Shown here piece by piece: positions 14,533 through 31,004 of a DNA stretch of 49,039 nt. A program made the position numbers and the translations under genes. A model generated the notes under the pieces. That model was not told where the DNA came from. It saw nothing but the letters and a program-made list of their open reading frames with translations, and made no database searches. The stretch lies in the IMG/VR virus record IMGVR_UViG_3300032516_000044, positions 1-49,039 of that record; one strand, 5' to 3'. Origin of the DNA: a virus. The number at the start of each line of letters is the position of its first letter. The stretch's first letter is position 1.

Positions 14533-14562
14533 ATCTATTCCTTTTTGTTGTCTATAACAATC

Positions 14563-16227: not shown

Positions 16228-16228
16228 A

Positions 16229-16540: not shown

Positions 16541-16549
16541 TATTTACTA

Positions 16550-16577
16550 ATTATACCGATTTTATAATAATTGTCAA
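16550..16577 (-). promoter_or_regulatory. Early promoter (TTGACA-N16-TATAAT), ATG 9 bases downstream
   Basis: Perfect -35 and -10 hexamers; drives 16540-15910. Confidence 0.85.
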
Positions 16578-16581
16578 CAGC

Positions 16582-16887: not shown

Positions 16888-16889
16888 AA

Positions 16890-17159: not shown

Positions 17160-17187
17160 AATTCTTTAATTATACCTTTTTGTTTTG

Positions 17188-17385
17188 TTAAGAGGGCTGA
17201 GACATTTCTAATGGTAGGTAAGGTTCAACCCCATTGATTTCCATTAAACTAGAATCCGCTATTTCACCATTTAAAAACTCATAGCTGACCTCATCGCCCG
17301 CTATAAATTCTTGGCTAATATATTTTCCTAGTTCAGTGTCGAATTGTTGGATAACAAATCCCACAGTGATTTTATAGATTTTCAT
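17188..17385 (-). CDS. Small hypothetical early protein (65 aa)
   Basis: Begins MKIYKITVGFVIQQFDTELG, mostly beta, ends PYLPLEMSQPS. First gene of the unit that includes the two paralogues. Leaderless start predicted. No family recognised. Confidence 0.6.
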   Translation of the reverse strand: MKIYKITVGFVIQQFDTELGKYISQEFIAGDEVSYEFLNGEIADSSLMEINGVEPYLPLEMSQPS

Positions 17386-17394
17386 AATTCTTTA

Positions 17395-17422
17395 ATTATA
17401 CCTTTTTTCTTTTGTTTGTCAA
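17395..17422 (-). promoter_or_regulatory. Early promoter (TTGACA-N16-TATAAT), ATG 9 bases downstream
   Basis: Perfect hexamers; drives 17385-16582. Confidence 0.85.
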
Positions 17423-18123
17423 TGACAATTACAAGTTTGACATTCCGGATTGCTCATTGGCGGATTACTCTTTAAGAGTGAATAAACCTCGCGGAGAAAC
17501 CCAAAGAACATGTTATCATCGCGGGGAATTGGAATATAGGTCAACTTGCCTTCCAATTTACCTTCACCCTTTGTAAAGGAAAATGACGCGGGCTCATAAA
17601 TTAGTAAGCCTAATTTAGTAACCGGACCAAAGCCGTCGCCCTTATTCGCTGGATTCTCAACGCTATGTGCGTAACTATGTAATTGTGAAGAATACAAGCG
17701 CATTTTCTCTTGTTTAGCTTGTGTGGTCTTAAAATCTATGATACCATAGGTGCCGTCGTCAAGTTTAATACGAGCGTCATATTTACCCTTAAAGTAAAGA
17801 GGAACATCACCGGCATCAACAGCGAATGGTAGGGATTCGATATTAAGGTTTTCAGAAAACTCAATGACACCTGCTGGTATGTTATCACAAACTGCTTCGG
17901 TGCGGATACCATTGAATGCAGCTTTCATACCGCTGTCAATCGTATTAAATATCTTGGCGATTGGAGTATAGCCCGGAACTGTGAGTGTTGGAATCCGTCG
18001 CACTTTATTATAGAAGCAACGAGGGCAACGATTATAGAGGAAGGCAAAGTCGCTTGGTGACAACTTCCAAGAATTGACGGGTTTGGTTACTAACGATTTT
18101 AACCACTTAACTATACTTTTCAT
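17419..18123 (-). CDS. Cas4/RecB-like PD-(D/E)XK nuclease with Fe-S cysteines
   Basis: 234 residues. The N-terminal LSPSDFAFLYNRCPRCFY gives Cys33 and Cys36; the C-terminal PECQTCNCH gives Cys228, 231 and 233. Four of these could hold an Fe-S cluster as in Cas4 and AddB-type exonucleases. Between them is the nuclease core: GKYDAR (Asp116), GIIDFKTT (Asp130, Lys132) and SSQLHSYA (Gln147). A 5'-3' exonuclease role in phage recombination or DNA degradation is likely. No cas genes are nearby, so this is a stand-alone phage version. Confidence 0.82.
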   Translation of the reverse strand: MKSIVKWLKSLVTKPVNSWKLSPSDFAFLYNRCPRCFYNKVRRIPTLTVPGYTPIAKIFNTIDSGMKAAFNGIRTEAVCDNIPAGVIEFSENLNIESLPFAVDAGDVPLYFKGKYDARIKLDDGTYGIIDFKTTQAKQEKMRLYSSQLHSYAHSVENPANKGDGFGPVTKLGLLIYEPASFSFTKGEGKLEGKLTYIPIPRDDNMFFGFLREVYSLLKSNPPMSNPECQTCNCH

Positions 18124-18132
18124 TACTCTCTA

Positions 18133-18160
18133 ATTATACAATATTTATATAATAAGTCAA
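18133..18160 (-). promoter_or_regulatory. Early promoter (TTGACT-N16-TATAAT), ATG 9 bases downstream
   Basis: One mismatch in the -35 box; drives the Cas4-like gene. Confidence 0.8.
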
Positions 18161-18195
18161 GGGTTATTCACAAGTTATAAGTCTTTAATGGGCAA

Positions 18196-18441
18196 TCACT
18201 TAAACAAAATACACTTACTGGATATTTCATTATCGTCTATGTTGTCACACTTTACATACCAAACACTTCCGTTTGTTGCGCGGACGATAAAGGTGTAAAT
18301 GGAACCGGGAACAGTTTGAATATCTGTGGTTTGGAACTCTTTATATACAGCATTTCGAGCACCACCCGGTGTAGTACGTTTTGAACAACCAGTTAAATAC
18401 AAACATGTTACACTTAATAGGATTATGATTAGTTTATTCAT
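18196..18441 (-). CDS. Small lipoprotein
   Basis: 81 residues with a lipoprotein signal (MNKLIIILLSVTCLYLTGC, lipobox LTGC at Cys19). The mature part has a beta-rich sequence with WYVKCDNID. It should be exported and lipidated, possibly to alter the infected cell's envelope (for example superinfection exclusion). The ATG overlaps the zinc-knuckle gene's stop (ATGA). Confidence 0.7.
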   Translation of the reverse strand: MNKLIIILLSVTCLYLTGCSKRTTPGGARNAVYKEFQTTDIQTVPGSIYTFIVRATNGSVWYVKCDNIDDNEISSKCILFK

Positions 18442-18605
18442 TGTTTATCATACCAATCGTCGGAGCGGTATTCTCTTTCTTGTTTGCGTTTCTTACCACC
18501 TAAAGATACTTTTGGGCATTCTTTAGTTTTATGTTCATCATTACCACACCAGCGGCATGGGATGACATTTCTGATTTGTTTGCGGTGTTGTTTACGAAGT
18601 TGCAT
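18438..18605 (-). CDS. CCHC zinc-knuckle protein (55 aa)
   Basis: Residues 17-30 read CRWCGNDEHKTKEC, an exact C-X2-C-X4-H-X4-C zinc knuckle, flanked by very basic segments (QLRKQHRKQIR and GGKKRKQERE). This is the architecture of a single-stranded nucleic-acid binder. It starts at TAATG with the upstream stop and ends at ATGA with the lipoprotein start, so it is the middle gene of a coupled trio. Confidence 0.72.
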   Translation of the reverse strand: MQLRKQHRKQIRNVIPCRWCGNDEHKTKECPKVSLGGKKRKQEREYRSDDWYDKQ

Positions 18606-18856
18606 TACGATTCCTTTTCGGCACTTTCGTAGATTTTGCTATATCGTTTCCAGAGCACGCCGAAGCATGCAGCCATGGTGCAACGATTATTATAGTTGTG
18701 CATTAGGCAAAAATCCAGTATAATGCCGATTTCATTCTCCAACCGATTATAGGGGAGATTGGTTGTAGTATTGAGGGCGCTGATAATCAGGTTGCGGTTT
18801 TCGGGCTTTAATTTAACATCAAAAGTGGCGGTGGTATTAGTTTTCATTTTTAACAT
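18605..18856 (-). CDS. Hypothetical early protein (83 aa)
   Basis: Start at ATG 18856 puts the codon 7 bases after a GATAAT box; ATG 18847 is an alternative. The sequence starts MLKMKTNTTATFDVKLKPE, with an N-terminal beta region and a Cys-containing helix (ILDFCLMHNYNNRCTMAACF). No family recognised. First of a three-gene coupled unit. Confidence 0.6.
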   Translation of the reverse strand: MLKMKTNTTATFDVKLKPENRNLIISALNTTTNLPYNRLENEIGIILDFCLMHNYNNRCTMAACFGVLWKRYSKIYESAEKES

Positions 18857-18986
18857 CTTTGGTATTATCTGTTATCTTATTAAGATTGTCAACTTCTTTT
18901 TTAGACACAAAATCTATAATATGAATGGGAGCGGCGTTGGCCCAATCAATTAACCATTGTGGTAATTCTAAAGGTTTATTTTGCAT
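18837..18986 (-). CDS. Small protein (49 aa) overlapping its neighbours
   Basis: Begins MQNKPLELPQWLIDWANAAP and ends in a Lys/Asn-rich tail that overlaps both the next promoter and the start of the 83-aa gene. Its ATG overlaps the upstream gene's last codons, with GGAG 12 bases before it. Composition is protein-like (Trp, Pro, Leu early), but the overlaps make it uncertain. Confidence 0.45.
   Translation of the reverse strand: MQNKPLELPQWLIDWANAAPIHIIDFVSKKEVDNLNKITDNTKDVKNEN
18864..18892 (-). promoter_or_regulatory. Early promoter (TTGACA-N17-GATAAT)
   Basis: Lies inside the end of the 49-aa gene 18837-18986. One of the few with a 17-base spacer; drives 18856-18196. Confidence 0.7.
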
Positions 18987-19407
18987 GCCACTCATTACTC
19001 CATGGAGTAATGTCATTACTACTCCAATTATAATTTTCCGGAGGCGCCCAAGAATTGTAATCAGCTTTTACTGTTAGTGGTTTCGGCTGACTTAGAAAAT
19101 CTTGTGGTTTCGGCTGACTTAGAAAATCTTCTGGCCACACTGAAATTGTGAATGTAAGTTGTTTGTCTTTTACTCTAAAAGCATGATAATTGTGACGGAT
19201 TACATATTGCTTGAAACTTCCATCGCAAATAAATGCTGAGATAACTTTTGCGCCGTGAATATCAACATCATTAAACTTAATATCAACTGAATCACCGACC
19301 TTAAATTTAAAGTCGGCAGTCGGCGGTTTTGCGCAGACAGGTTTTTCATTAAAGACGACTCCATTGATGGAGATTTTTTCGTTTGGTGCTAGAGTAATGT
19401 TAATCAT
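18976..19407 (-). CDS. Hypothetical protein with SH3-like region and internal 9-residue duplication
   Basis: 143 residues. Residues ~32-60 (FKFKVGDSVDIKFNDVDIHGAKVISAFI, partly shown) resemble an SH3-like barrel. Near residue 95 the segment DFLSQPKP occurs twice in a row, encoded by a 27-bp tandem repeat at about 19079-19130. The ATG is 7 bases from TATAAT with no binding site. Confidence 0.62.
   Translation of the reverse strand: MINITLAPNEKISINGVVFNEKPVCAKPPTADFKFKVGDSVDIKFNDVDIHGAKVISAFICDGSFKQYVIRHNYHAFRVKDKQLTFTISVWPEDFLSQPKPQDFLSQPKPLTVKADYNSWAPPENYNWSSNDITPWSNEWHAK
19079..19130. repeat. 27-bp tandem duplication inside 18976-19407
   Basis: The stretch GGTTTCGGCTGACTTAG with the following AAAATCTT occurs at 19079 and again at 19106. 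It adds exactly nine codons, so the frame is kept. Confidence 0.85.
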
Positions 19408-19414
19408 ATTAGTA

Positions 19415-19442
19415 ATTATACCTTTTTTGTAGTTTTTGTCAA
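19415..19442 (-). promoter_or_regulatory. Early promoter (TTGACA-N16-TATAAT), ATG 7 bases downstream
   Basis: Perfect hexamers; the -35 box overlaps the end of the gene 19439-19738. Confidence 0.85.
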
Positions 19443-19738
19443 TCGTTAATAATCAACACGGACCAACCAGCAAGATTAGGGAATTTCCGAATACTCTCAG
19501 CTGTTGGTGCAAAATTCCAACCATAAACATCTTCGTTGTCCTCATCGGTCTTAACCAGAGTCCATTCCGATTGCTTGCCGGTTTTCTCACTATACATAGC
19601 CATACCAATATCACAGGCATCGTCATACATCTGCCCTATCAATCGGCCTGTCAAGTTACTTGCTTCTGCAATCATAAGCTTGTCGCAGAAATGAGCAGTG
19701 AAGTGTCGGGTCGAATGAACAGGAAGGTTAAGCTTCAT
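19439..19738 (-). CDS. Hypothetical early protein (99 aa)
   Basis: Soluble mixed alpha/beta sequence with GQMYDDACDIGMAMYSEKTGKQ and a C-terminal NLAGWSVLIIND. Its stop codon (TGA) is supplied by the TTGACA box of the next promoter. No family recognised. Confidence 0.65.
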   Translation of the reverse strand: MKLNLPVHSTRHFTAHFCDKLMIAEASNLTGRLIGQMYDDACDIGMAMYSEKTGKQSEWTLVKTDEDNEDVYGWNFAPTAESIRKFPNLAGWSVLIIND

Positions 19739-19747
19739 TATTCTCTT

Positions 19748-19775
19748 ATTATACGGATTTGTATAAGAATGTCAA
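19748..19775 (-). promoter_or_regulatory. Early promoter (TTGACA-N16-TATAAT), ATG 9 bases downstream
   Basis: Perfect hexamers; drives 19738-19439. Confidence 0.85.
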
Positions 19776-19782
19776 GCAGTGT

Positions 19783-20190
19783 TTACCAAACGTGGTTAAT
19801 GTCAAGTTTTTCGTCAAGGAAGATACCGAGCTTAATTAGGCGCCACATTTTAACTTCTGCGTCGGTTAAAGCTTTATCAAAGTTTAAGTAAAGGATATGT
19901 CGTATGATTGTTTTTTCAACTTCCTTACCACGCCAATTTCTGTCTTTGACGATTTCATCATTTCGTGTAAACTGTGCAACGGAAGAAGGCAATGGAATAG
20001 CGGCATAGGTTTCGCCGTTATCAACGGGAATGTAATGGTGCTTCATTTCCGCAATAGCGCCAAGAATTTTATAGAAAATACTATTCATCGCTCGAAGGCT
20101 CCATGGCCAACGTGTATTGGACCAAAGAATGAATTTGGTATTACTTGTTAGGATTTTATTAAGGTCGTCGGTATAGGCTTCTTTATTCAT
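19783..20190 (-). CDS. Hypothetical early protein (135 aa)
   Basis: ATG at 20190 overlaps the SEC-C gene's stop as ATGA, so this start is preferred to a GTG at 20196. Helical sequence with MNSIFYKILGAIAEMKHHYI and a C-terminal KMWRLIKLGIFLDEKLDIN. No family recognised. Confidence 0.65.
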   Translation of the reverse strand: MNKEAYTDDLNKILTSNTKFILWSNTRWPWSLRAMNSIFYKILGAIAEMKHHYIPVDNGETYAAIPLPSSVAQFTRNDEIVKDRNWRGKEVEKTIIRHILYLNFDKALTDAEVKMWRLIKLGIFLDEKLDINHVW

Positions 20191-20378
20191 ACGCACTCAC
20201 AGAATTTTGCTTTCTTACCGCTGCCACATTGGCAGAGGTCGTAAGCGTGTTCTTTCTTCCATTGTAGGATTACTTGTTGCCGCTTATATTCCGGAACATT
20301 TTCATTGACATACCATTTGAACAATTCCGCCAATGCGGGGTCAGTTGCTTCAAGCGGTTGTGGTGTTACGATTTCCAT
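20187..20378 (-). CDS. SEC-C zinc-motif protein (63 aa)
   Basis: The C-terminus LCQCGSGKKAKFCECV is a SEC-C zinc-binding motif (CxCGSGKKxKxCxC). The rest is a helix with EYKRQQVILQWKKEHAY. SEC-C modules mediate zinc-dependent binding, for example to ribosomes or SecB in host proteins. The target here is unknown. It sits between two coupled genes. Confidence 0.78.
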   Translation of the reverse strand: MEIVTPQPLEATDPALAELFKWYVNENVPEYKRQQVILQWKKEHAYDLCQCGSGKKAKFCECV

Positions 20379-20567
20379 TTATATCACCGAGCAATCTTCT
20401 TTGGAAATCCACTCACGGTCAGATTTAGAACCACTGACGGGTTGCACTAAAACATTTTCTGCGACAATTTGACATTCACGAATAACTACACCCAGCGTAG
20501 TTTGTCCCAGTTTCTTTGAGAAATAGTCAACTAACGAATTAACTGTAATCGTGTCATTCATAACCAT
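20379..20567 (-). CDS. Small hypothetical early protein (62 aa)
   Basis: ATG at 20567 is 6 bases after TATAAT, so its A could be the first transcribed base; ATG 20561 is an alternative. Its stop abuts the SEC-C ATG. Mixed sequence with EWISKEDCSVI at the end; no family recognised. Confidence 0.6.
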   Translation of the reverse strand: MVMNDTITVNSLVDYFSKKLGQTTLGVVIRECQIVAENVLVQPVSGSKSDREWISKEDCSVI

Positions 20568-20573
20568 ATACTA

Positions 20574-20601
20574 ATTATACCGAAATTATAATAAATGTCA
20601 A
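20574..20601 (-). promoter_or_regulatory. Early promoter (TTGACA-N16-TATAAT), ATG 6 bases downstream
   Basis: Perfect hexamers; drives 20567-19783. The TGA of TTGACA is the stop of the gene 20598-20789. Confidence 0.85.
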
Positions 20602-20789
20602 GTGTTAAATTCTTCGTCGAAACGCAGCGCATCTACTTTCTTTAATAGATTGTAAGCACTATTGCGTGTTCCCTTAGCAAAGCGGTGTCCTTTTGGAAAA
20701 GGTTTGCGGTCTTTACTCTGATGCTTTTTACTTTTTGGCTTACCGTAATTATCCCAGCCCGGTTGAATCCATCTGCGTGTATCACTCAT
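20598..20789 (-). CDS. Small basic protein (63 aa)
   Basis: Very basic middle (YGKPKSKKHQSKDRKPFPKGHRF), probably nucleic-acid binding and partly disordered. ATGA overlap with the upstream gene; stop inside the following -35 box. No family recognised. Confidence 0.62.
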   Translation of the reverse strand: MSDTRRWIQPGWDNYGKPKSKKHQSKDRKPFPKGHRFAKGTRNSAYNLLKKVDALRFDEEFNT

Positions 20790-20998
20790 AGCATTGCCTC
20801 TGCTAAAACGTGCAACGCCTTCCCGCTAATTTCATTGTGGGTGGCATCATAATCAGTTGTGATTGTTACCGCTATACCGCTGGGAACTACACCACGATTA
20901 ACACAGAAATTCATATATGTTTTACCATTCAAAGCATTATATACTTTAGCTGCGGTCTTTTCGTTTAGATAACCCAAGTTAATTGTCGTGGTTTTCAT
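20786..20998 (-). CDS. Hypothetical early protein (70 aa)
   Basis: Start at ATG 20998, sharing the A of the upstream stop (TAATG). Begins MKTTTINLGYLNEKTAAKVYNA; mixed alpha/beta with ITTDYDATHNEISGKALH. No family recognised. Coupled middle gene. Confidence 0.6.
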   Translation of the reverse strand: MKTTTINLGYLNEKTAAKVYNALNGKTYMNFCVNRGVVPSGIAVTITTDYDATHNEISGKALHVLAEAML

Positions 20999-21258
20999 TA
21001 TTGACTCCATTCATTACACTTCGTTAATATTTCTGTATCATTTACACCCGAAGAAAGGTTAAGAGAAACAGACTTGCCCCACGCTCTTATAACTAATTCT
21101 TCGTCGCCGCCCGTATCCTCAACACTTGCCCGGCAGAATCCCGCCGAAATGGGTGTGTAATAATCAGGAAAACTTTGCCGAACTTGATTGTGCGTCAACA
21201 ATTCGGAAAAGATTACGGGACACTCAAGACCATTGACATCGAAGATAATGTATTTCAT
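20998..21258 (-). CDS. Hypothetical early protein (86 aa)
   Basis: Starts MKYIIFDVNGLECPVIFSELLTHNQ. The segment GFCRASVEDTGGDEELVIRAWGKS is typical of small phage proteins with a beta sheet. Leaderless start predicted. No family recognised. Confidence 0.62.
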   Translation of the reverse strand: MKYIIFDVNGLECPVIFSELLTHNQVRQSFPDYYTPISAGFCRASVEDTGGDEELVIRAWGKSVSLNLSSGVNDTEILTKCNEWSQ

Positions 21259-21267
21259 AACTCTTTA

Positions 21268-21295
21268 ATTATACTTTATTTGATAGATTTGTCAA
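21268..21295 (-). promoter_or_regulatory. Early promoter (TTGACA-N16-TATAAT), ATG 9 bases downstream
   Basis: Perfect hexamers; drives 21258-20598. Confidence 0.85.
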
Positions 21296-21302
21296 TCGCA
21301 TA

Positions 21303-21455
21303 TTAAGCTCCAAACCTTGAGGAATCCGCGCAGTGTTTTTCACCGGCTTGCCAATCTTTCCATGCAATTTCTTTGAATGCTTCAACAATTAAAGGCGATG
21401 TAGATGTTATATGAGTCTCTGCCCACCAAATTTCAAATGCTCTAGTTGTTTCCAT
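21303..21455 (-). CDS. Small protein (50 aa), Trp-rich
   Basis: From ATG 21455 (METTRAFEIWWAETHI), preceded by AGAAGG 8 bases upstream; an upstream in-frame start at 21497 lies inside the neighbouring gene. Contains DWQAGEKHCADSSRFGA. Third gene of the unit started at 21800. Unknown. Confidence 0.55.
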   Translation of the reverse strand: METTRAFEIWWAETHITSTSPLIVEAFKEIAWKDWQAGEKHCADSSRFGA

Positions 21456-21457
21456 AA

Positions 21458-21631
21458 TTAAGCCTTCTGTGAATTGTCGAAGATTACACGGACACAATTG
21501 CCATCAATTCTCTGCCAGTTTGTGATTTGCATACCGGTCAGCCAGTTGTATTGTCGGCCAAGAGAAGTGCCGTCAAATTCAACATCAAACCGATTGTCAT
21601 CTAGTGTAATTACTCGTGGTTCAACTCTCAT
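21458..21631 (-). CDS. Small hypothetical protein (57 aa)
   Basis: Product MRVEPRVITLDDNRFDVEFD...VRVIFDNSQKA, a likely small beta domain. The ATG lies within the end of the DUF1737-like gene and the stop is just before the 50-aa gene's ATG. Composition and overlaps fit a genuine coupled gene. Confidence 0.6.
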   Translation of the reverse strand: MRVEPRVITLDDNRFDVEFDGTSLGRQYNWLTGMQITNWQRIDGNCVRVIFDNSQKA

Positions 21632-21800
21632 ATCTTACCATTGCCTGTATCCAAGAATCTGACCCACCAGGAAAATGGGATTCAATAAAAGTTACGCCGC
21701 CAATCGGAATCCAACCTAATCTAATCCAGTCATTGACAGTTTTTTCAAGGTGATGCTTTAGGCCTAAGTCAACAATTCGATATTCAATAACTTTATTCAT
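21621..21800 (-). CDS. DUF1737-like small protein (59 aa)
   Basis: The pattern MNKVIEYRIVD...LEKTVNDWIRLGWIPIGGVTF matches the DUF1737 family (small proteins with an LEe.VN..l..GW.PiGGv core). Function of the family is unknown. It is the first gene behind its promoter; the ATG is 9 bases from TATAAT. Confidence 0.72.
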   Translation of the reverse strand: MNKVIEYRIVDLGLKHHLEKTVNDWIRLGWIPIGGVTFIESHFPGGSDSWIQAMVRYES

Positions 21801-21809
21801 TATTCTCTT

Positions 21810-21837
21810 ATTATACGGAAATTATAATAAATGTCAA
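21810..21837 (-). promoter_or_regulatory. Early promoter (TTGACA-N16-TATAAT), ATG 9 bases downstream
   Basis: Perfect hexamers; drives 21800-21303. It begins right after the terminator of ncRNA A. Confidence 0.85.
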
Positions 21838-21873
21838 CAACAAAATAGCTTTGGTTTGCTTATATTCGACAAC

Positions 21874-21911
21874 CAAAAAACTTCACACGGAGTAGGCTAG
21901 AAAAATCCGTG
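21874..21911 (-). terminator. Terminator of ncRNA A
   Basis: CACGGA, a 14-base loop and TCCGTG, then TGAAG and a run of six T on the minus strand. Confidence 0.65.
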
Positions 21912-22436
21912 ATTCGATGCGGTCTAGCACCGTTTGCAAATTGATTGTTTCGCTTGTTATGGTGCGTGTTAGTCTTAGGTCCGACGAAGCCATACCTCCT
22001 CAGGACACTCTACGCCTATACCGTTCTACAGTATAATCCAGCGAAACAAATTGATGGGCAAGGCGGGAGTCGAACCCGCTACCTCTTTACTTCGAGTGTT
22101 CGTGATATAAACCGTTGGTCCGCTTTACCGGTTCACGGCGCCGCCTATAGTGCGTTACACTAGATTCGTCAATCGGGTCTACATAATGCGCTCTCTACCA
22201 TTTTGAGCTTTCTTGCCCATAAGTTATCAAAAGAACATTTACAACCTCCGCTACCAGTGGTTTTTTAGGATTACCATAAACCTTATTTGATAGCTGCTGT
22301 AGTGCCCCCAGCCATCAACATCTAAAATTCATTTTGTCTTGACGCGGTTGGTCGCCGCTGATGGATCTCGTCTCCCCCAGCACGGGAGAGAAAGTTGTTA
22401 AAGTCTCCATCAAACTAACCAATTAACAACTCACTA
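21875..22436 (-). ncRNA. Large structured RNA A (about 560 nt) with embedded tRNA-like domain
   Basis: It has its own promoter and terminator and no credible gene. Helices seen on the minus strand, 5' to 3': TTGGT/ACCAA enclosing GATGGA/TCCATC enclosing CTCCC-GTGCTG-GGGGAG; GTTGTTAA at the 5' end can pair with TTAACAAC in the loop, a pseudoknot; a 10-bp TTGATGGCTG/CAGCTATCAA; then the tRNA-like domain (22052-22218) and an element closed by GTTTCGCT/AGCGAAAC (21943-22047). Size, phage location and tRNA linkage recall the GOLLD and ROOL families, but I cannot match it to either. Confidence 0.65.
22052..22218 (-). ncRNA. tRNA-like domain with a 110-nt insertion instead of an anticodon arm
   Basis: Acceptor GGGCAAG pairs with CTTGCCC over 7 bp; the D-arm is GCTC-AAAATGGTAGA-GAGC and the T-arm is GCGGG-TTCGACT-CCCGC, both canonical. 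About 110 bases with several small hairpins occupy the place of the anticodon arm and variable loop. The 3' end is ATCA, not ACCA. It is not a standard tRNA; a spliced tRNA cannot be excluded. Confidence 0.55.
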
Positions 22437-22442
22437 CTAACA

Positions 22443-22470
22443 AGTATATATATTTTTATATATTTGTCAA
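22443..22470 (-). promoter_or_regulatory. Promoter of ncRNA A (TTGACA-N16-TATACT)
   Basis: Nearly identical in spacer sequence to the promoter of ncRNA B (AATATATAAAAAT...), which suggests the two RNAs are related or co-regulated. Confidence 0.8.
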
Positions 22471-22481
22471 CATCTATTTAA

Positions 22482-22826
22482 TTATTCCATATCCAGTCGC
22501 ACAACATCTTCGGAGACAAAGCGCACAAACTTCTGAACATCTGCGACGGTCATATTGCTATCCAAGCTATTGCCTGACTTTGGATTGTAACCGACGACAA
22601 GGCCATTGCCCTTGAATGGCTGATGAGCGCCGTCCCAAATAAACCAATCGGTGTGCGGCTCAAATAGACCTTCTTCATTTACATAAACTGTGTTATACTT
22701 GCTGCCGTGTTTAATTTCGGCAGCGACTTCAATGAGTCCTTCGACAGCCTTCTGCATATCAGTTAGACCGTTTACTTCAATCTCTGTAATTGTCTGCAGG
22801 TGGGAATCAATCTTAATAGCTTTCAT
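22482..22826 (-). CDS. DUF3846-like protein
   Basis: 114 residues. The order IKIDSHLQTITEIEVNGL..MQKAVEGLIEVA, then VYVNEEGLFEP, then FKGNGLVVGYN fits the DUF3846 family, common in phages, of unknown function. Leaderless start predicted 7 bases after TATAAT. Moderately confident of the family. Confidence 0.65.
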   Translation of the reverse strand: MKAIKIDSHLQTITEIEVNGLTDMQKAVEGLIEVAAEIKHGSKYNTVYVNEEGLFEPHTDWFIWDGAHQPFKGNGLVVGYNPKSGNSLDSNMTVADVQKFVRFVSEDVVRLDME

Positions 22827-22833
22827 ACTCTTT

Positions 22834-22861
22834 ATTATAGGTAAATTATATAATAAGTCAA
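22834..22861 (-). promoter_or_regulatory. Early promoter (TTGACT-N16-TATAAT), ATG 7 bases downstream
   Basis: One mismatch in the -35 box; drives the DUF3846-like gene. Confidence 0.8.
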
Positions 22862-22865
22862 GCTC

Positions 22866-23123
22866 TTATTTAACAACAATACCCGTTCTTGTAACTGATT
22901 CTATAGAAAGTACTTTCATATCTTTGGGCTTTGAAAATTTTCTGTAAGCATGAATAGTATAACCTGATTCATGACCACCGTTTGTATTCTCTCCAATATA
23001 TTCAAACAACCCATCCCAACTTGACCATTCATTGGCAATTTTCTTTGTCAAACGAAAGGCGTATTCAGAGCTGCCGCCACGAAAATACTTTTTGATTACA
23101 TACCACGATAGTCTTGCTTTCAT
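22866..23123 (-). CDS. Hypothetical early protein (85 aa)
   Basis: Begins MKARLSWYVIKKYFRGGSSE. Basic, aromatic-rich, ends KVLSIESVTRTGIVVK. No domain recognised. The ATG is 6 bases from TATAAT. Confidence 0.6.
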   Translation of the reverse strand: MKARLSWYVIKKYFRGGSSEYAFRLTKKIANEWSSWDGLFEYIGENTNGGHESGYTIHAYRKFSKPKDMKVLSIESVTRTGIVVK

Positions 23124-23129
23124 AGTATA

Positions 23130-23157
23130 ATTATACAGAAATTATATAATAAGTCAA
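23130..23157 (-). promoter_or_regulatory. Early promoter (TTGACT-N16-TATAAT), ATG 6 bases downstream
   Basis: One mismatch in the -35 box; drives 23123-22866. Confidence 0.8.
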
Positions 23158-23164
23158 GAGGAAA

Positions 23165-23606
23165 ATGGAAGTTTTCTTTAATTGCGATAAAAGAAAACTC
23201 GGTTACGCCGTATCGGCTCGCCGTAAAAGAAACCTCGTTGCGCACTTGTTTATCGTCTAGGCCAATCAAAGACTTGGTTCTGTTTTACGCCACTCACCAT
23301 CGGCGGTTTTTAAGTCTTGACTGACTGGTTTTTGAGTCTTGTCCTGACTGACAATTTAGAGTCTTGTTCGGACTGATGTTTTAGTCGTGTCATGACTGAT
23401 GTTTGAGTCTTTCCTGACTGAGAGTTTTAAGTCTTGCTCGGACTGATTTTTACATCTTGTGCTGATGGTTTTTCAGTCTTGTCTGACTTTGCTAGTCACT
23501 AGCATTGAGTTTAAGGTTGGCTTCTAACCGGTTTGCTCGCTTGTCATTTCCTGACGGGTCTTTAACATTGACTCCCACGGTTTATTTTAGCGTTGTTTTC
23601 TCAACG
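23165..23606 (-). ncRNA. Non-coding RNA C with an array of eight small hairpins
   Basis: It is promoter-driven and has no gene. On the minus strand the 5' part has CGTTG-TTTTCT-CAACG-type and GCTAGT-G-ACTAGC hairpins, followed by eight units with period 22-25 nt: a 4-bp stem (AGTC/GACT) with a 6-7-base loop ending CAA or similar, then an A-rich linker. One unit has CATC/GATG instead, so two pairs changed together. The 3' part holds CCAA/TTGG and CGGC-GA-GCCG hairpins. No known family fits; a binding platform or sponge is my inference. Confidence 0.65.
23313..23487. repeat. Eight-unit hairpin repeat, ~23-nt period
   Basis: Units start on the plus strand at 23313, 23335, 23360, 23383, 23406, 23430, 23453 and 23475. 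Each is AGTC, 6-7 bases, GACT (CATC/GATG in the seventh), separated by T-rich spacers. Confidence 0.85.
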
Positions 23607-23612
23607 ACATCT

Positions 23613-23640
23613 ATCATACCACAATTCTTATTTCTGTCAA
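23613..23640 (-). promoter_or_regulatory. Promoter of ncRNA C (TTGACA-N16-TATGAT)
   Basis: Strong hexamers with the usual 16-base spacer; no start codon follows. Confidence 0.8.
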
Positions 23641-23649
23641 CAACTATTC

Positions 23650-23847
23650 TTAGAAGATTTCATTTTTTCCAATTAGAAATGCACCGATGCATGTTAATAC
23701 AAGCAATATCAACGGAACAAATATACATACTAAAACATTAAAATGTCGTGGGCTTGATAAAAAGCCAAGGACTGCAGAACCATAAAGGAATAGACCACCA
23801 AACATTCCAAAAAACAATCCAGCAATATATTTGTTGTGACGTTGCAT
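23650..23847 (-). CDS. Small two-helix membrane protein (65 aa)
   Basis: Membrane helices near residues 8-31 (AGLFFGMFGGLFLYGSAVLG) and 38-60 (VLVCIFVPLILLVLTCIGAF), basic N-terminus. Second gene behind the 24205 promoter, after the L7/L12-like gene. Function unknown. Confidence 0.65.
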   Translation of the reverse strand: MQRHNKYIAGLFFGMFGGLFLYGSAVLGFLSSPRHFNVLVCIFVPLILLVLTCIGAFLIGKNEIF

Positions 23848-23850
23848 GTC

Positions 23851-24195
23851 TTAAAATGCTGTAAAAACAGGAGGCTTAGCATTGGTAAAATTACGTACAT
23901 CCTCTGATGCATCCTTAGCATCCCTCAAGCCCCAATTTGTCACCCGCCGGATTTCCTTAATAGCAGCAATCTTATTACCCATAGCAAGAAAATCATCAAT
24001 GATAATGTATTGCGTAGGAGAAAGATTAAAACGTGGACTGCCCATTGCTGTCGAGCCGACAATCGTATAAAACATCTCTGGACTTGGGCTAATCTCAATT
24101 AAGAGGTCGAGCGCTTGTTCCTTGATAACAGGAGAACAGGGGAGTGAAGTTAGGGCAAGACCGCGAAGAAACTTAATAACTTTGTCGTTTGTCAT
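23851..24195 (-). CDS. Protein with a ribosomal L7/L12-like C-terminal domain
   Basis: 114 residues. Residues ~70-104, with GNKIAAIKEIRRVTNWGLRD followed by AKDASEDV, match the helix pair of the bL12 C-terminal domain (K..vIK.vR..T.lgLkeAKd.ve). The N-terminal part is helical and unlike bL12, so this is not a full ribosomal protein. In bL12 this surface recruits translation factors. A phage copy could interact with elongation or initiation factors; this is inference. Confidence 0.7.
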   Translation of the reverse strand: MTNDKVIKFLRGLALTSLPCSPVIKEQALDLLIEISPSPEMFYTIVGSTAMGSPRFNLSPTQYIIIDDFLAMGNKIAAIKEIRRVTNWGLRDAKDASEDVRNFTNAKPPVFTAF

Positions 24196-24204
24196 ATTGT
24201 TACT

Positions 24205-24232
24205 ATTCTACCGATTTTTATATAAATGTCAA
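24205..24232 (-). promoter_or_regulatory. Early promoter (TTGACA-N16-TAGAAT), ATG 9 bases downstream
   Basis: One mismatch in the -10 box; drives 24195-23650. Confidence 0.8.
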
Positions 24233-24276
24233 GCGGAAACTTTTTGTGATACTATTTATTTTGGAGGATAAAACTT

Positions 24277-24630
24277 ATGATTATTAAAAAACTACTTGGT
24301 ATTACAGCGATTGCAATTTTAACATCGTGTGCAACAATTTATGCAGGGAATCCCGGTCTTGGAGTGAGTTGGGTTTGTATCTCAAATTGCACTGATAATG
24401 TAGATGATTCTATTTTACTACAGCGCAGTCCTGATTTGGGCACAAATTGGACATCCATTGCATCATTAGCAACAAATATTCTTAGTTATACCGACGCCGT
24501 TCTTCCCGACAGAACCACCTTTTCCTATCGTGTTGCAGCTGTTGCGTCTTGTTGTGGAACGGGAGATTGGTCCAATGTTGTATCTAAAACAACCAAGGGC
24601 AAACCAATCAAAGTTTTTATAATCAATTAA
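24277..24630 (+). CDS. Lipoprotein with fibronectin-III-like domain
   Basis: 117 residues on the opposite strand to its neighbours. The lipoprotein signal is MIIKKLLGITAIAILTSC (lipobox LTSC). The mature part has a FN3-like pattern: LQRSPDLGTNWTSIASL, then YTDAVLPDRTTFSYRVAAV, similar to secreted proteins of Verrucomicrobiota. GGAGG precedes the ATG by 9 bases, unlike the leaderless neighbours. Strand, leader and content suggest acquisition by transfer. It would act on the cell surface. Confidence 0.7.
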   Translation: MIIKKLLGITAIAILTSCATIYAGNPGLGVSWVCISNCTDNVDDSILLQRSPDLGTNWTSIASLATNILSYTDAVLPDRTTFSYRVAAVASCCGTGDWSNVVSKTTKGKPIKVFIIN

Positions 24631-24817
24631 TCGAATCGAATATCAATTTCTTTTGATACCGTGACCAATCGTTAAAGTGACGCGCATACCAGTCCCGCTC
24701 AGCCGCATTTACACCAACATCAGTGCCTGTGCGCTCACTCAATACCCATTTGTGCTTGACAATTTCATTGTAAATACTAGCATACAATTCCTCAAGCGGT
24801 TTATACATTACATTCAT
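24623..24817 (-). CDS. Short DUF4032-like protein (64 aa)
   Basis: From ATG 24817: MNVMYKPLEELYASIYNEIV, then HKWVLSERTGTDVG..AAERDW. The segment resembles the DUF4032-type motif (hKW.LSERaGrDVg...A..dW) found in longer bacterial proteins. It overlaps the convergent lipoprotein gene by 8 bases. Function unknown. Confidence 0.6.
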   Translation of the reverse strand: MNVMYKPLEELYASIYNEIVKHKWVLSERTGTDVGVNAAERDWYARHFNDWSRYQKKLIFDSIN

Positions 24818-24833
24818 AGTCTTAATATATAGT

Positions 24834-25580
24834 TTAATTATCGTTGAAAAATGGACTCTTTTCATGACTTACGACGCCATCCTGAACAATCGTTATATAC
24901 CGATTAGCAAAATCTACATCGTAATTGTTGCTCAAACTATCCTTCCTGTTCGGAGAAGCTTTGTAAATACCTTTCCCTAAAGGGTTTGGATGCGGTGTAT
25001 GACCCACAATTTGATGAATCCCATTGATTGGTACAAATTCCGTATCGTAATCCAACCAAGTTATACCACCAACAGGTAAATCACCGCCCCTTGACCATCC
25101 TGCACGCAATAGGCGCGGCGTATGACCACACTTAGCATACGTAAGCGCTTCCTCACAAATCTCCGTAAGGTATTGATAATCAAACCCTTTTATAGAATGT
25201 AATGCCCAAGACTTATGAATGCCAGCATGGCTAAATAGGAAGTTTTGACTAAAATAACAGAGCCTAAGCTGTTGCCAATCATCAGCATCCAACACACCTT
25301 CTATGGTTACTTGCTTCTCACTTGTATTGCCAGAACAGTGCAAACCTTTAGCAAGAGGATGAGCATACCACAAATCGTGGTTGCCCCATAAGTGTATGCG
25401 GTTGCGCTGTTTAAGACTATTTTTGAGCCATTCTGCAGCCCTTTTAATGTCAACAAGCGAATCGTAGAAATTATCAAAGTAATCGCCAAGAAACACAACT
25501 TCGTCGTAAGTCGTTGAGGCTAAATAGCCTTCGACCCATGACACTTGATTGTGCAAGTCGCTGATTACGATTGTTTTCAT
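24834..25580 (-). CDS. Calcineurin-like metallophosphoesterase
   Basis: 248 residues with all metal motifs in order: SDLHNQ (7-12), GDYFDN (32-37), GNHD (66-69), FSHAGIH (116-122) and GHTPHP (193-198). The family cleaves phosphoesters in proteins, nucleotides or RNA ends; T4-like phages use such enzymes with RNA ligases in end healing, which is plausible here with two ligases nearby. TAATG overlap with the upstream gene. Confidence 0.9.
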   Translation of the reverse strand: MKTIVISDLHNQVSWVEGYLASTTYDEVVFLGDYFDNFYDSLVDIKRAAEWLKNSLKQRNRIHLWGNHDLWYAHPLAKGLHCSGNTSEKQVTIEGVLDADDWQQLRLCYFSQNFLFSHAGIHKSWALHSIKGFDYQYLTEICEEALTYAKCGHTPRLLRAGWSRGGDLPVGGITWLDYDTEFVPINGIHQIVGHTPHPNPLGKGIYKASPNRKDSLSNNYDVDFANRYITIVQDGVVSHEKSPFFNDN

Positions 25581-25771
25581 TATGGATACTCAATGATTAT
25601 GTAGTCTTTATTAAATACAAGTCCCGTCACATCTACTTCATCATCAACGACATACTCCTCGTCCTTGAATGCTTCAGAATCCACCCATTCCGGCCAGCTG
25701 CAGCAACCATCGCCGCAATAGCGGTTAATTTTGATACGAATTTTGGATTCGTGGAGGAACTTAACTTTCAT
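25580..25771 (-). CDS. Small acidic protein (63 aa) with Cys pair
   Basis: Begins MKVKFLHESKIRIKINRYCGDGCC, acidic C-terminal half. The CGDGCC segment might bind metal. Coupled to the phosphoesterase by TAATG. No family recognised. Confidence 0.6.
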   Translation of the reverse strand: MKVKFLHESKIRIKINRYCGDGCCSWPEWVDSEAFKDEEYVVDDEVDVTGLVFNKDYIIIEYP

Positions 25772-25780
25772 AATGACTTA

Positions 25781-25808
25781 ATTATAGAGAAATTCTATAT
25801 TAAGTCAA
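25781..25808 (-). promoter_or_regulatory. Early promoter (TTGACT-N16-TATAAT), ATG 9 bases downstream
   Basis: One mismatch in the -35 box; drives 25771-24834. Confidence 0.8.
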
Positions 25809-25810
25809 GT

Positions 25811-26008
25811 TTATTCTGCTTCGACGGTAAGGACTTCGACACCGTAGGAGCTGCCCATACCATCACTGCGGAAGTCATAAGCAAATTCATCCACAGCAAT
25901 CTCTTGTGCTTCTTCTAAGGAAGATGCGCGGACAGTTTCGTATTTGATTTTTTCAGACCGCTCACAAATTGTGATGGTAAATACTTTTAAAACTTTATCT
26001 GTTTTCAT
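25811..26008 (-). CDS. Hypothetical early protein (65 aa)
   Basis: ATG 26008 overlaps the upstream stop as ATGA, so MKTDKVLKVFTITICERSEK is the start. Contains ASSLEEAQEIAVDEF, a pattern seen in many small phage proteins with a single beta-alpha unit. Function unknown. Confidence 0.62.
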   Translation of the reverse strand: MKTDKVLKVFTITICERSEKIKYETVRASSLEEAQEIAVDEFAYDFRSDGMGSSYGVEVLTVEAE

Positions 26009-26250
26009 TGAAAATTCATCCATGTAATCATTTCATTTTTTAGATTAAAGAGAAAATTATGATATTCCCAACCAAAAAACCAATGCTTCTTTTCAAGTTC
26101 TATCCAACCCCTTTTATCAATTCTCCTCATTCGGTATAATTTTGGATGACAATGTGCCAAATAGCGAGCACACCTAAACTCTTGTATTCTTTTCTGATTG
26201 TATTCAGTGTTAAGTGCGCCGATAAATCTCTCTGCCCATGTTTTATTCAT
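26005..26250 (-). CDS. Hypothetical early protein (81 aa)
   Basis: Basic and aromatic (FRCARYLAHCHPKLYRMRRI, ELEKKHWFFGWEYHNFLFN). First gene behind its promoter, start 7 bases after TATAAT. No domain recognised. Confidence 0.6.
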   Translation of the reverse strand: MNKTWAERFIGALNTEYNQKRIQEFRCARYLAHCHPKLYRMRRIDKRGWIELEKKHWFFGWEYHNFLFNLKNEMITWMNFQ

Positions 26251-26257
26251 ATTCTCT

Positions 26258-26285
26258 ATTATACCAATTTTATAAATAAAGTCAA
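26258..26285 (-). promoter_or_regulatory. Early promoter (TTGACT-N16-TATAAT), ATG 7 bases downstream
   Basis: One mismatch in the -35 box; drives 26250-25811. Confidence 0.8.
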
Positions 26286-26288
26286 CTC

Positions 26289-26546
26289 TTAAAGAAACTC
26301 AAAGTAAGGATAATTCTGATTGCCTTTTAATTGAAACCACCGCATTTGATTATTGCTTCGGAAATGAATAACCAAACGCTCTTCCATATCACGATAATCG
26401 CCTATACAATGAAATTTACTAGTAGATGTACGAATCTTATTGGCCTTGCAATAGCTAACAAGCCACTCACGGACACCATCGTTTTTGTCGAGGTAATCCG
26501 TAGAAATATCTACATTCACCGGCGGTATCTTAAACCGATTTTGCAA
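26289..26546 (-). CDS. Hypothetical early protein (85 aa)
   Basis: Overlaps the end of the Cys-rich gene by 17 bases. Sequence includes GVREWLVSYCKANKIR and RLVIHFRSNNQMRWFQLKG, a likely small alpha/beta fold. No family recognised. Confidence 0.58.
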   Translation of the reverse strand: MQNRFKIPPVNVDISTDYLDKNDGVREWLVSYCKANKIRTSTSKFHCIGDYRDMEERLVIHFRSNNQMRWFQLKGNQNYPYFEFL

Positions 26547-27210
26547 ATTTCACAACCTTAAATGATTCAGGCTGACCACCACAAATTACCTTCAACTCAC
26601 TCGGAGTCATTTTCCTATGAGCTTTAAGCACAATACAATCTGAATAACGATTGCCGTCCCACAAATTGATTAAACCATATAGCAACCCATCACCCGGTGT
26701 ACGCACATCCATTCTAGCAAGAATATATTGCTGACCTTCTTTTTCAAGAAGCAACAAATTGCAACAAGGATCAAAGGTGGGCAGATCGGCTGCCGTCTCT
26801 AGCTTTTTCTTAATAGTCTTGGGCAGACACTTCTCCAATGCAGCAATCATTTTATCAGGACTGCCGTTTTCACGAAATTGTCGGTATGGTGAAAGAGGCT
26901 CATCATCTATAGCAGAGTAATCACACTTTCTACCATTGAGAGCCTTGTAAAGTGGACACTTAATGCAATCCCCTTCCAAATAGTGATGACAGAGAGAACA
27001 ACTATCGGCGCCGATTTCCAAAACAGTTTTACCATTGGGACCACGCTTCGCAACTACGTGATCGTCAAGATACAAATCATACTCCTGTAATACATGAGAG
27101 GTCAAACCACGCCACTTGCGTAATGCGTGCTCGACAGCATTTTGCTTTGTGGATTCCATCGCATCTACCGGATAAAATTTAGCTAACCAAGCTTGGGATT
27201 GTTTATTCAT
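26530..27210 (-). CDS. Cys-rich, probably zinc-binding protein (226 aa)
   Basis: Residues ~68-96 (GADSCSLCHHYLEGDCIKCPL...KCDY) place four to five Cys and two His at zinc-binding spacing, a pattern seen in several phage proteins of unknown role. The C-terminal half has a beta region and ends in a basic helix (LKVICGGQPESFKVVKFAK). Start is 8 bases after TATAAT. Confidence 0.65.
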   Translation of the reverse strand: MNKQSQAWLAKFYPVDAMESTKQNAVEHALRKWRGLTSHVLQEYDLYLDDHVVAKRGPNGKTVLEIGADSCSLCHHYLEGDCIKCPLYKALNGRKCDYSAIDDEPLSPYRQFRENGSPDKMIAALEKCLPKTIKKKLETAADLPTFDPCCNLLLLEKEGQQYILARMDVRTPGDGLLYGLINLWDGNRYSDCIVLKAHRKMTPSELKVICGGQPESFKVVKFAKSV

Positions 27211-27218
27211 ATTCTCTA

Positions 27219-27246
27219 ATTATACCGATTTTATATTAAATGTCAA
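27219..27246 (-). promoter_or_regulatory. Early promoter (TTGACA-N16-TATAAT), ATG 8 bases downstream
   Basis: Perfect hexamers; the TGA of TTGACA is the stop of 27243-27443. Confidence 0.85.
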
Positions 27247-27443
27247 GTGACAATTTCATTCAGTTGGGTCTGCAGTAAATCCAATTCCTCAAGACCGACA
27301 AAGTTTTCCAGAATAGCAACATATTTTAACATCTGAATTTGTCCACATGTCGTATTAATCCAATACCGGCTACGCAATACGTGACATGTCGTTGCATCAC
27401 GCCGCACATAATCCATTAACTTATTAAATTGCGGTTTTGTCAT
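27243..27443 (-). CDS. Small hypothetical protein (66 aa)
   Basis: Begins MTKPQFNKLMDYVRRDATTC; helical, ends in an acidic Leu-rich helix. ATGA coupling to the upstream gene; stop lies in the next promoter. Unknown. Confidence 0.6.
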   Translation of the reverse strand: MTKPQFNKLMDYVRRDATTCHVLRSRYWINTTCGQIQMLKYVAILENFVGLEELDLLQTQLNEIVT

Positions 27444-27688
27444 AGATAAGGATTTTCCTCACGGTATGGGTCAAATGGGGCAAAGCCCGTGAACGTTCCG
27501 TTGTTATGAACCAATTCGTCCCACCGACCATCGCTATCACGATAGATGATGCGCAATTGTGGATAAAGCCGGTTGACATATTCGGTAACATTTTCAGCGT
27601 CATTTGTAACGCTCATTGCGTCGGTGTTATCATCAACTAAAAAGACTTTATCAGCGGTGCTTCCAACAATATGAAACTTGGATTTCAT
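27440..27688 (-). CDS. Hypothetical early protein (82 aa)
   Basis: Includes FLVDDNTDAMSVTNDAENVTE and RIIYRDSDGRWDELVHNNG, a pattern typical of small phage proteins with a curved beta sheet. Coupled to both neighbours (its start shares the upstream gene's last base). Unknown. Confidence 0.6.
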   Translation of the reverse strand: MKSKFHIVGSTADKVFLVDDNTDAMSVTNDAENVTEYVNRLYPQLRIIYRDSDGRWDELVHNNGTFTGFAPFDPYREENPYL

Positions 27689-27915
27689 TACTTAACCTTA
27701 ACCGCGTTGCGCTTAATTTCTGTCACATAGACATCGCCCAATTCGCCGTCGGGACACATTGGCGTGACTACATCACAGAACCAACGGGCATACGGATTAT
27801 TTGCTTCACCATCGGGCGCCTGATACTTCTTCAAGCAATACCAAGTCCATTCACCATTTGACCAAACTTCATACGCTTGCTCACGCTTGACCGTCTTTCC
27901 ACAGAGATTCTTCAT
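27688..27915 (-). CDS. Hypothetical early protein (75 aa)
   Basis: ATG 27915 is 7 bases after TATAAT and gives MKNLCGKTVKREQAYEVW; a longer frame to 27975 would run through the promoter and is rejected. Trp- and Cys-containing (EWTWYCLKKYQAPDG, WFCDVVTPMCPDG). No family recognised. Confidence 0.62.
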   Translation of the reverse strand: MKNLCGKTVKREQAYEVWSNGEWTWYCLKKYQAPDGEANNPYARWFCDVVTPMCPDGELGDVYVTEIKRNAVKVK

Positions 27916-27922
27916 AGTAGTA

Positions 27923-27950
27923 ATTATACCGATTTTATAATAAATGTCAA
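27923..27950 (-). promoter_or_regulatory. Early promoter (TTGACA-N16-TATAAT), ATG 7 bases downstream
   Basis: It lies entirely in the last codons of 27924-28148; the TAA inside TATAAT is that gene's stop. Confidence 0.85.
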
Positions 27951-28148
27951 GTCTTTTAAGCAGTATGGAATCCAACGCCAGAAGGGAAACCCAATCAGTC
28001 TAAAAGACTTTCTGGTATTTCCTTGTGCGTCTAATCCCGGCCAATAGACGATGCCCCAAATATAATGGAAGCTCCAATGCTCCCATGTCAGTGTTGCCTT
28101 CTTGAATTGAAGGCGCCAATCGCCTTGACTTAATTTAATTAGTTTCAT
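27924..28148 (-). CDS. Trp-rich small protein (74 aa) whose end encodes a promoter
   Basis: ATG 28148 (MKLIKLSQGDWRLQFKKATL) is 7 bases from the -10 box; longer frames to 28154 or 28184 are less likely. Sequence has HYIWGIVYWPGLDAQGN and FPFWRWIPY. The final residues DLTFIIKSV are dictated by the next promoter. Unknown. Confidence 0.6.
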   Translation of the reverse strand: MKLIKLSQGDWRLQFKKATLTWEHWSFHYIWGIVYWPGLDAQGNTRKSFRLIGFPFWRWIPYCLKDLTFIIKSV

Positions 28149-28155
28149 AAGCATT

Positions 28156-28184
28156 GATATACCGATTTCTATAATAAATGTCAA
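28156..28184 (-). promoter_or_regulatory. Early promoter (TTGACA-N17-TATATC)
   Basis: Spacer is 17 here because of one extra base relative to its siblings; -10 box has two mismatches. Drives 28148-27924. Confidence 0.65.
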
Positions 28185-28191
28185 GCGTTAA

Positions 28192-28413
28192 TTAGGCAAA
28201 TGGCGTATATAAAACTTGAATCCTTGTGCCATTACGTAATGACATTACATTGCCCGCACAACCATTCCAGAAAAATCCTTCAATGTCAAAATCTTCTTCC
28301 CCTGCTAACTTCAACAATTGTCGAATGGCATCTTTTACATCCATTTCTTCGACTAAAGAACAAGCCAAGATAGTATTGGATCCAATGTTTGCTACAAGAT
28401 ATTTTTCATTCAT
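28192..28413 (-). CDS. Hypothetical early protein (73 aa)
   Basis: From ATG 28413 (MNEKYLVANIGSNTILACSL). Contains VKDAIRQLLKLAGEEDFDIEGFF and ends RIQVLYTPFA. Second gene after 28592. No family recognised. Confidence 0.6.
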   Translation of the reverse strand: MNEKYLVANIGSNTILACSLVEEMDVKDAIRQLLKLAGEEDFDIEGFFWNGCAGNVMSLRNGTRIQVLYTPFA

Positions 28414-28424
28414 AATTTTATCAA

Positions 28425-28592
28425 TCAATCAACCAATTCAACTTCGTCAATCTCATATGAGGTATGAAACCGATAAGGCATTGCACATAACGCTGCCATC
28501 GCTGCGTCATACGTCCGAAACGCCTTGACATTTGCAAACGTCGAACCATCATAATCCGTTGAGTGCTCCAGCGTTAATACGTAAATCGTCAT
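28425..28592 (-). CDS. Small hypothetical protein (55 aa)
   Basis: MTIYVLTLEHSTDYDG...RTYDAAMAALCAMPYRF, a beta-alpha unit like many small phage proteins. Start 8 bases from a GATAAT box with no binding site. Below 60 residues but promoter position and composition support it. Confidence 0.65.
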   Translation of the reverse strand: MTIYVLTLEHSTDYDGSTFANVKAFRTYDAAMAALCAMPYRFHTSYEIDEVELVD

Positions 28593-28600
28593 ATATGTAC

Positions 28601-28628
28601 ATTATCGCTATTTTTATAATAATGTCAA
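28601..28628 (-). promoter_or_regulatory. Early promoter (TTGACA-N16-GATAAT), ATG 8 bases downstream
   Basis: Drives 28592-28192. The TGA in TTGACA can end the small frame 28625-28732. Confidence 0.8.
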
Positions 28629-28732
28629 GGTCTTTCCCATGCGTAATCTCTTTGTTCACCATACCGCCAACGAATCCATCGGTATTTCAACCAGTGGAAA
28701 CGCGGCGGCAGTAAGCGAAGGATTACAAGCAC
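28625..28732 (-). CDS. Possible small basic Trp-rich peptide (35 aa)
   Basis: GTG start inside the end of the RNA ligase gene; product MLVILRLLPPRFHWLKYRWI, continuing RWRYGEQRDYAWERP, ends at the TGA of the next TTGACA box, the same trick as several neighbours. Strongly basic and aromatic. No clear binding site, so the call is tentative. Confidence 0.35.
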   Translation of the reverse strand: MLVILRLLPPRFHWLKYRWIRWRYGEQRDYAWERP

Positions 28733-29799: not shown

Positions 29800-29845
29800 T
29801 TGTTTTTGAATAGATAACACTATTTATCTTAATGGAGAAGATTAT

Positions 29846-30995: not shown

Positions 30996-31004
30996 TATTT
31001 ACTT

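Follow-up and report, generated by a model that had tools for sequence, protein, structure and literature searches.

A tandem array of eight predicted mini-hairpins in a likely non-coding RNA gene of a T4-type phage

Results

A likely RNA gene behind a promoter of the tmRNA type

The window analysed here is the whole of IMG/VR virus record IMGVR_UViG_3300032516_000044, 49,039 bases in length, which is probably a fragment of a phage genome and not a whole one. On its minus strand, a promoter with the sequence TTGACA-16-TATGAT (23613–23640) matches the consensus at 11 of 12 positions, carries a TGG before the −10 element (an extended −10) and has a predicted start at about 23606. Among promoter matches of at least 11/12 in 12000–31000, the TATGAT −10 occurs only here and in the tmRNA promoter (14363–14336); the protein-gene promoters of this interval mostly use TATAAT. 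No open reading frame of at least 60 amino acids occurs on the transcribed strand. Since a non-coding stretch thus follows a strong TATGAT promoter of the tmRNA type, 23165–23606 is likely to be a dedicated non-coding RNA gene of roughly 440 nt, transcribed leftwards from about 23606. The transcribed strand of 23313–23606 is 42% A and 17% T, and the 300-nt stretches at the hairpin array described below have the strongest A-over-T skew in the window, an asymmetry to be expected of an RNA with single-stranded linkers and loops. The initial annotation had proposed a non-coding RNA at this locus, and promoter, reading frames and skew all speak for that proposal. A reading of the array as coding sequence was rejected, as its 23-nt units break the frame and stops occur in all frames.

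The predicted RNA begins with a 5′-end hairpin, CGTTG/CAACG (23591–23606, −3.7 kcal/mol). Downstream on the same strand are the mini-hairpins GTCA-GGAAA-TGAC (23543–23555, a predicted fold), GGTT-AGAAGCC-AACC (23515–23529), which has a 7-nt loop and an A-rich linker on a different stem, and TGCTAG-TGA-CTAGCA (23490–23504, −5.9 kcal/mol). The first of these three is possibly a degenerate further unit of the array, with homology suggested by its likeness to unit 4, GTCAGGAAAGAC. By count, the promoter-to-array stretch holds four further hairpins of 4–5 bp with stems unlike those of the array, a number reached in 1 of 1000 local shuffles; these upstream hairpins lend weak support, because 3–4% of all 118-nt windows genome-wide contain as many small hairpins. 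With 12, the 294-nt stretch 23313–23606 has the most short hairpins in the window. The 3′ part, 23165–23307 (minus strand), is without mini-hairpins and folds no better than its shuffles (z −1.2). An A/T-rich hairpin of about 11 pairs at 23170–23199 (minus strand) may form the 3′ end of the RNA, which is uncertain as the hairpin has no clean U run. Beyond it, the next gene's promoter (TTGACT-16-TATAAT, 23130–23157, minus strand) separates the gene at 22866–23123 from the RNA.

Eight units of a 4-bp stem and a 6–7 nt loop

Eight units lie at 23313–23488 on the minus strand, inside 23165–23606. Each comprises a 4-bp stem, a loop of 6–7 nt, the closing stem, N-AAA and a short linker ending in C or UC. 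The stem is AGTC/GACT in unit 1 (23475–23488, loop AGACAA), unit 3 (23430–23444, CGAGCAA), unit 4 (23406–23419, AGGAAA), unit 5 (23383–23397, ATGACAC), unit 6 (23360–23374, CGAACAA), unit 7 (23335–23349, AGGACAA) and unit 8 (23313–23326, AGTCAA), that is, in seven of the eight; unit 2 (23453–23467, loop AGCACAA) has the stem CATC/GATG, changed in sequence with its pairing kept. Loops end in CAA in 6/8 units, and this conservation is one-sided, being found on the 3′ side only. As RNA, the module reads CAGUC-[A/C]GNNCAA-GACU-NAAA.

Dyad centres are spaced 21.5–25 nt apart, with a mean period of 23.1 nt. Eight mini-hairpin units of about 23 nt with AGTC/GACT stems, CAA-like loop ends and A-rich linkers had been annotated initially, and all of these features were recovered; the even spacing also claimed there is imperfect, longer linkers following units 3 and 6 as a result of a three-unit super-repeat of about 70 nt.

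Counting non-overlapping hairpins that share the same 4-nt stem within 200 nt, we observed seven, against a maximum of four in 60 dinucleotide shuffles of the whole window and of two in 2000 shuffles of the region; shuffling destroys tandem repeats, so that the test speaks for the presence of the array and not for selected pairing. The motif AGTC-N7-GACT occurs four times in the array and once elsewhere in the window, inside a gene (0.26 expected). Pairwise identity among loops and linkers is 64%, whereas seven stems are identical. Between-unit likeness is higher in stem columns (0.88) than in the rest (0.64; permutation p about 0.013), in a test biased by the fact that the stems were picked for matching each other.

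Growth of the array and the deviant unit

By self-comparison, a 112-nt stretch matches itself with 78% identity when shifted by about 70 nt, and a repeat search together with the self-comparison resolved two copies of a three-unit super-repeat, 23412–23465 and 23342–23395 (23342–23465 overall, minus strand; offset 70 nt, 78% identical). Unit 3 corresponds to unit 6, unit 4 to unit 7, and units 2 and 5 to unit 8. Taken with the longer linkers after units 3 and 6, this correspondence indicates that the array grew by duplication of a three-unit block of about 70 nt.

In a plain alignment of the blocks, unit 2 differs at four stem positions, all of which are still paired. The best alignment of unit 2 to unit 8 and the others places AAAACCA-TCAG against AAAACCAGTCAG: the left arm changes from AGTC to CATC through one deleted G (CAGTC to CA-TC), and the right arm from GACT to GATG through two substitutions. 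The compensatory change that had been annotated here therefore stands in part, in that both arms changed and 4/4 positions pair; it arises from one deletion and two substitutions in a single unit. As evidence of covariation it is thin, being one instance with fewer independent events than four matched substitutions.

Two registers compete in the array, since each AGTC has a second possible partner across the linker, the GACT of the unit before it. Unit 2 pairs within itself at 4/4 positions, and its cross-linker pairing to the neighbours is broken on both sides (2/4 and 3/4). This one unit therefore favours the within-unit hairpin, and not the cross-linker pairing, as the form that would have been kept.

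Predicted folding

Single units have folding energies of −1.8 to −3.4 kcal/mol. As eight separate hairpins, the array reaches −19.7 kcal/mol, compared with a predicted minimum of −36.8 kcal/mol with other partners. The AGUC and GACU arms are all mutually complementary, and long-range or intermolecular pairing is energetically favoured. With a maximum pairing distance of 30 nt, moderate probability was reached by units 1, 2, 3 and 8 only. Folding during transcription would favour local hairpins, and we consider the eight-hairpin structure moderately supported.

Source phage and search for relatives

The window encodes RIIA, RIIB, a baseplate wedge protein, two RNA ligases and a homing endonuclease, as well as a tmRNA and seven tRNAs, on which basis we assign it to a large tailed phage of the T4 type. 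No DNA relatives of the window were found in the annotated phage collection. Positions 1–7057 are identical to a 7,061-base IMG/VR contig (L163) with another sample number (3300031707), which suggests two assemblies of one phage.

Searches for the RNA itself found no Rfam family at a permissive threshold (E up to 5). Chance-level pieces were all that blastn returned, both for the locus and its two halves against phages and for the 5′ part with the array against plasmids. A pattern scan of IMG/VR gave 13 single hits, none of them among loci with an AGTC array. The same type of scan over 84,980 bacterial and archaeal genomes gave one hit, in a Cytophagales intergenic region (L162, 4922–4981), where three consecutive AGTC-N7-GACT dyads, two of them parts of longer palindromes (e.g. 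AGTCATA.TATGACT), lie between an oxidoreductase-like and a sugar-transferase-like gene. We judged this to be, in all likelihood, an unrelated cluster of DNA palindromes.

Protein searches with the neighbouring genes at 22482–22826, 23851–24195 and 24834–25580 gave one distant hit only, and those with RIIA and RNA ligase found relatives of 29–42% only. The baseplate gene recovered the identical 7-kb contig and a 79% sister, L164 from sample 3300014838, which is the closest phage, with 79% identity at the level of the baseplate protein and about 73% at that of DNA. As compared, L164 has no match to the window beyond about 13 kb; the RNA was searched for in its whole 40-kb record and not found. 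The array RNA is thus without a known relative in the IMG/VR, phage, plasmid and Rfam collections searched.

Other candidate RNAs and promoters in the window

Several further stretches of the window have features of RNA genes. In the non-coding stretch 22440–21860, a tRNA-like element at 22220–22050 (minus strand), unlisted by the tRNA finder, has 9-nt matching acceptor arms (ATGGGCAAG/CTTGCCCAT), a D-arm GCTC..GAGC with GGTAGA, and a perfect T-arm (GCGGGTTCGACTCCCGC) that matches the tmRNA T-arm with E 0.0001. An extra structured insert of about 90 nt takes the place of the anticodon arm, TCA stands near the end and not CCA, and the element has its own promoter (22470–22443). One possibility is a tRNA-like RNA that is permuted or carries an intron. 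At 32455–32018 (minus strand), a promoter at 32479 is followed by a gene-free stretch of about 430 nt; in its −35, spacer and TATACT −10, this promoter is almost the same as the one at 22470. The stretch closes with TCCACCAATTTAGT, where 14 nt are the same as at the end of the tmRNA gene, and probably encodes a further stable RNA whose 3′ end is tRNA-like. At the CCA end of the tmRNA and several tRNAs (13911–13921, 32017–32027, 48572–48582, 48849–48856 and 48931–48941, minus strand), the sequence continues as (CCA)CCAATTTA, perhaps a shared processing signal.

On the minus strand of 12000–31000, many small genes are each preceded by a promoter close to consensus, TTGACA-16-TATAAT, with spacers that resemble one another and often GG before the −10; the candidate non-coding RNAs of the window use TATGAT or TATACT instead of TATAAT. 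The plus-strand stretch 43596–43760 holds one of the few promoter-like sites of that strand and, after it, G+C-rich sequence without a gene (AAGGCGGCGGCCGCCGG...), possibly another RNA.

Discussion

The sequence shows the array, its history of duplication, a promoter sequence and the absence of a long reading frame. To us, the most likely function is that of a multivalent decoy, or sponge, for an RNA-binding protein, with a probability of roughly 0.4, close to the protein- or RNA-titrating sponge of the initial annotation. This reading is an analogy, drawn from the near-identical modules, their A-rich single-stranded joints, the strong dedicated promoter and growth by duplication, and from two phage precedents, the pseudo-ToxI RNA of phiTE (PMC3475682) and the RNA anti-CRISPRs (PMC10651486). 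Once transcribed, a phage RNA of about 440 nt would present, in its middle, eight short stem-loop modules in tandem, each folding separately and serving as a low-affinity site for one host RNA-binding protein or ribonuclease. The loop CAA and the A-rich linker would be the parts read out by the protein, with the 4-bp stem presenting them, and an abundant RNA would titrate the bound host protein during infection. Against such a decoy, the predicted minimum folds prefer other pairings, the case for covariation comes from a single deviant unit, the comparison of stem columns is biased, and no relative of the RNA was found in the collections searched. That the RNA founds a new class, a phage counter-defence or take-over RNA whose array of hairpins with a 4-bp stem and a 7-nt loop (CAGUC-NGNNCAA-GACU-NAAA) would titrate an RNA-binding protein or nuclease of the host that phages were not known to target, strikes us as rather unlikely.

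To our knowledge, very few phage RNAs soak up a host protein. If the decoy reading is true, the repeated loop would be a ready-made bait for the target, and slippage would let the phage adjust the dose through the number of units. Should the reading be false, the locus warns that self-complementary repeats can imitate structured RNAs, because mutually matching stems look paired in every register.

Another reading is that the array belongs to a larger, 'ornate' structured phage RNA as its flexible or scaffolding part, with the hairpins acting as spacers or multimerisation contacts and not as protein sites. The mutual complementarity of all AGUC and GACU arms, which favours long-range pairing and pairing from one molecule to the next, fits this, as do the other hairpins and the 3′ part that flank the array. 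Large phage RNAs whose copies assemble with one another exist in GOLLD and ROOL (PMC12286853). We think such a domain less likely than a decoy, yet plausible; against it, an Rfam match is absent even at E 5, the 3′ part folds no better than its shuffles, and neither GOLLD nor ROOL is built as a tandem mini-hairpin array. Both are often found close to tRNA islands, unlike the array RNA.

Plausible to the same degree is that the array is a drifting, functionless tandem repeat, in which a self-complementary unit was amplified by slippage in a transcribed spacer and the pairing of unit 2 is luck. The clear three-unit duplication and the single deviant unit would fit, as would the few events behind unit 2: its two right-hand bases would fit by chance in about 1 of 16 cases. 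Phage genomes are compact, however, the loops and linkers have diverged around seven identical stems, and the array has a strong promoter of its own.

Improbable in our view is a DNA-level element, that is, eight inverted-repeat sites for a dimeric DNA-binding protein (an operator array, iterons or a replication origin) that are transcribed incidentally. AGTC-N7-GACT is a dyad in DNA as well, and the Cytophagales cluster shows three such dyads in tandem between two genes. An operator array is made less likely by the one-sided conservation of the loops, which leaves no symmetric centre, and by the change of both half-sites together in unit 2; moreover, a period of 23 nt does not correspond to complete turns of the helix, the array lies 100–290 nt downstream of the promoter, one strand has a strong A bias, and scattered copies are absent except for the one inside a gene.

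Least probable is decoy action by mimicry of either a type III antitoxin repeat or a CRISPR repeat. Phage precedents are known for each (PMC3475682, PMC10651486), and the array has repeated units with A-rich joints. The idea is opposed by units of 23 nt compared with the 34–36 nt of ToxI-type repeats (PMC5086642), by the want of a downstream U run to pair with the loops into an H-type pseudoknot, by the lack of an Rfam ToxI match at the locus and of an adjoining defence gene, and by the solitary nature of the Racr repeats. Also rejected were a mimic of the tRNA anticodon arm, as the 7-nt loops end in AA but are without U33, and an antisense RNA to the phage's own tRNAs or tmRNA, as these contain no 7-nt match to the unit consensus.

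Returning to the decoy reading, sponge RNAs of the CsrB/RsmZ type consist of many short hairpins joined by single strands, each hairpin a site for one protein, and the array RNA resembles them in its many predicted short hairpins on single-strand joints. It differs in the CsrA signature, GGA being found in 2/8 array loops (units 4 and 7) and one upstream hairpin, and the Rfam CsrB/RsmX-Z families gave no match to the array up to E 5. Large phage non-coding RNAs of unknown function, GOLLD and ROOL among them, are alike in kind; architecture and length differ, and the covariance models of GOLLD, ROOL and OLE left the array RNA unmatched. The pseudo-ToxI decoy of phage phiTE is a phage-encoded repeat RNA that grows by repeat duplication (PMC3475682), and the array shares with it the phage-encoded repeats, the growth by duplication and the A-rich joints. 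Pseudo-ToxI is made of pseudoknots of about 36 nt, whereas the array consists of simple 23-nt hairpins without a sequence match to it, and the period of 23.1 nt falls short of type III antitoxin repeats in general (about 34–45 nt). Read by eye, the array repeats contain no H-type pseudoknot, as the loops cannot pair with the A-rich linkers, and neither Pfam nor PADLOC identified an endoribonuclease toxin or defence gene among the neighbours. Racr RNA anti-CRISPRs are phage non-coding RNAs with their own promoter, in which a hairpin soaks up a host RNA-binding protein (PMC10651486). They are solitary mimics of a CRISPR repeat, in contrast to an eight-fold array, and what the array RNA has in common with them is a predicted promoter of its own and its predicted hairpins.
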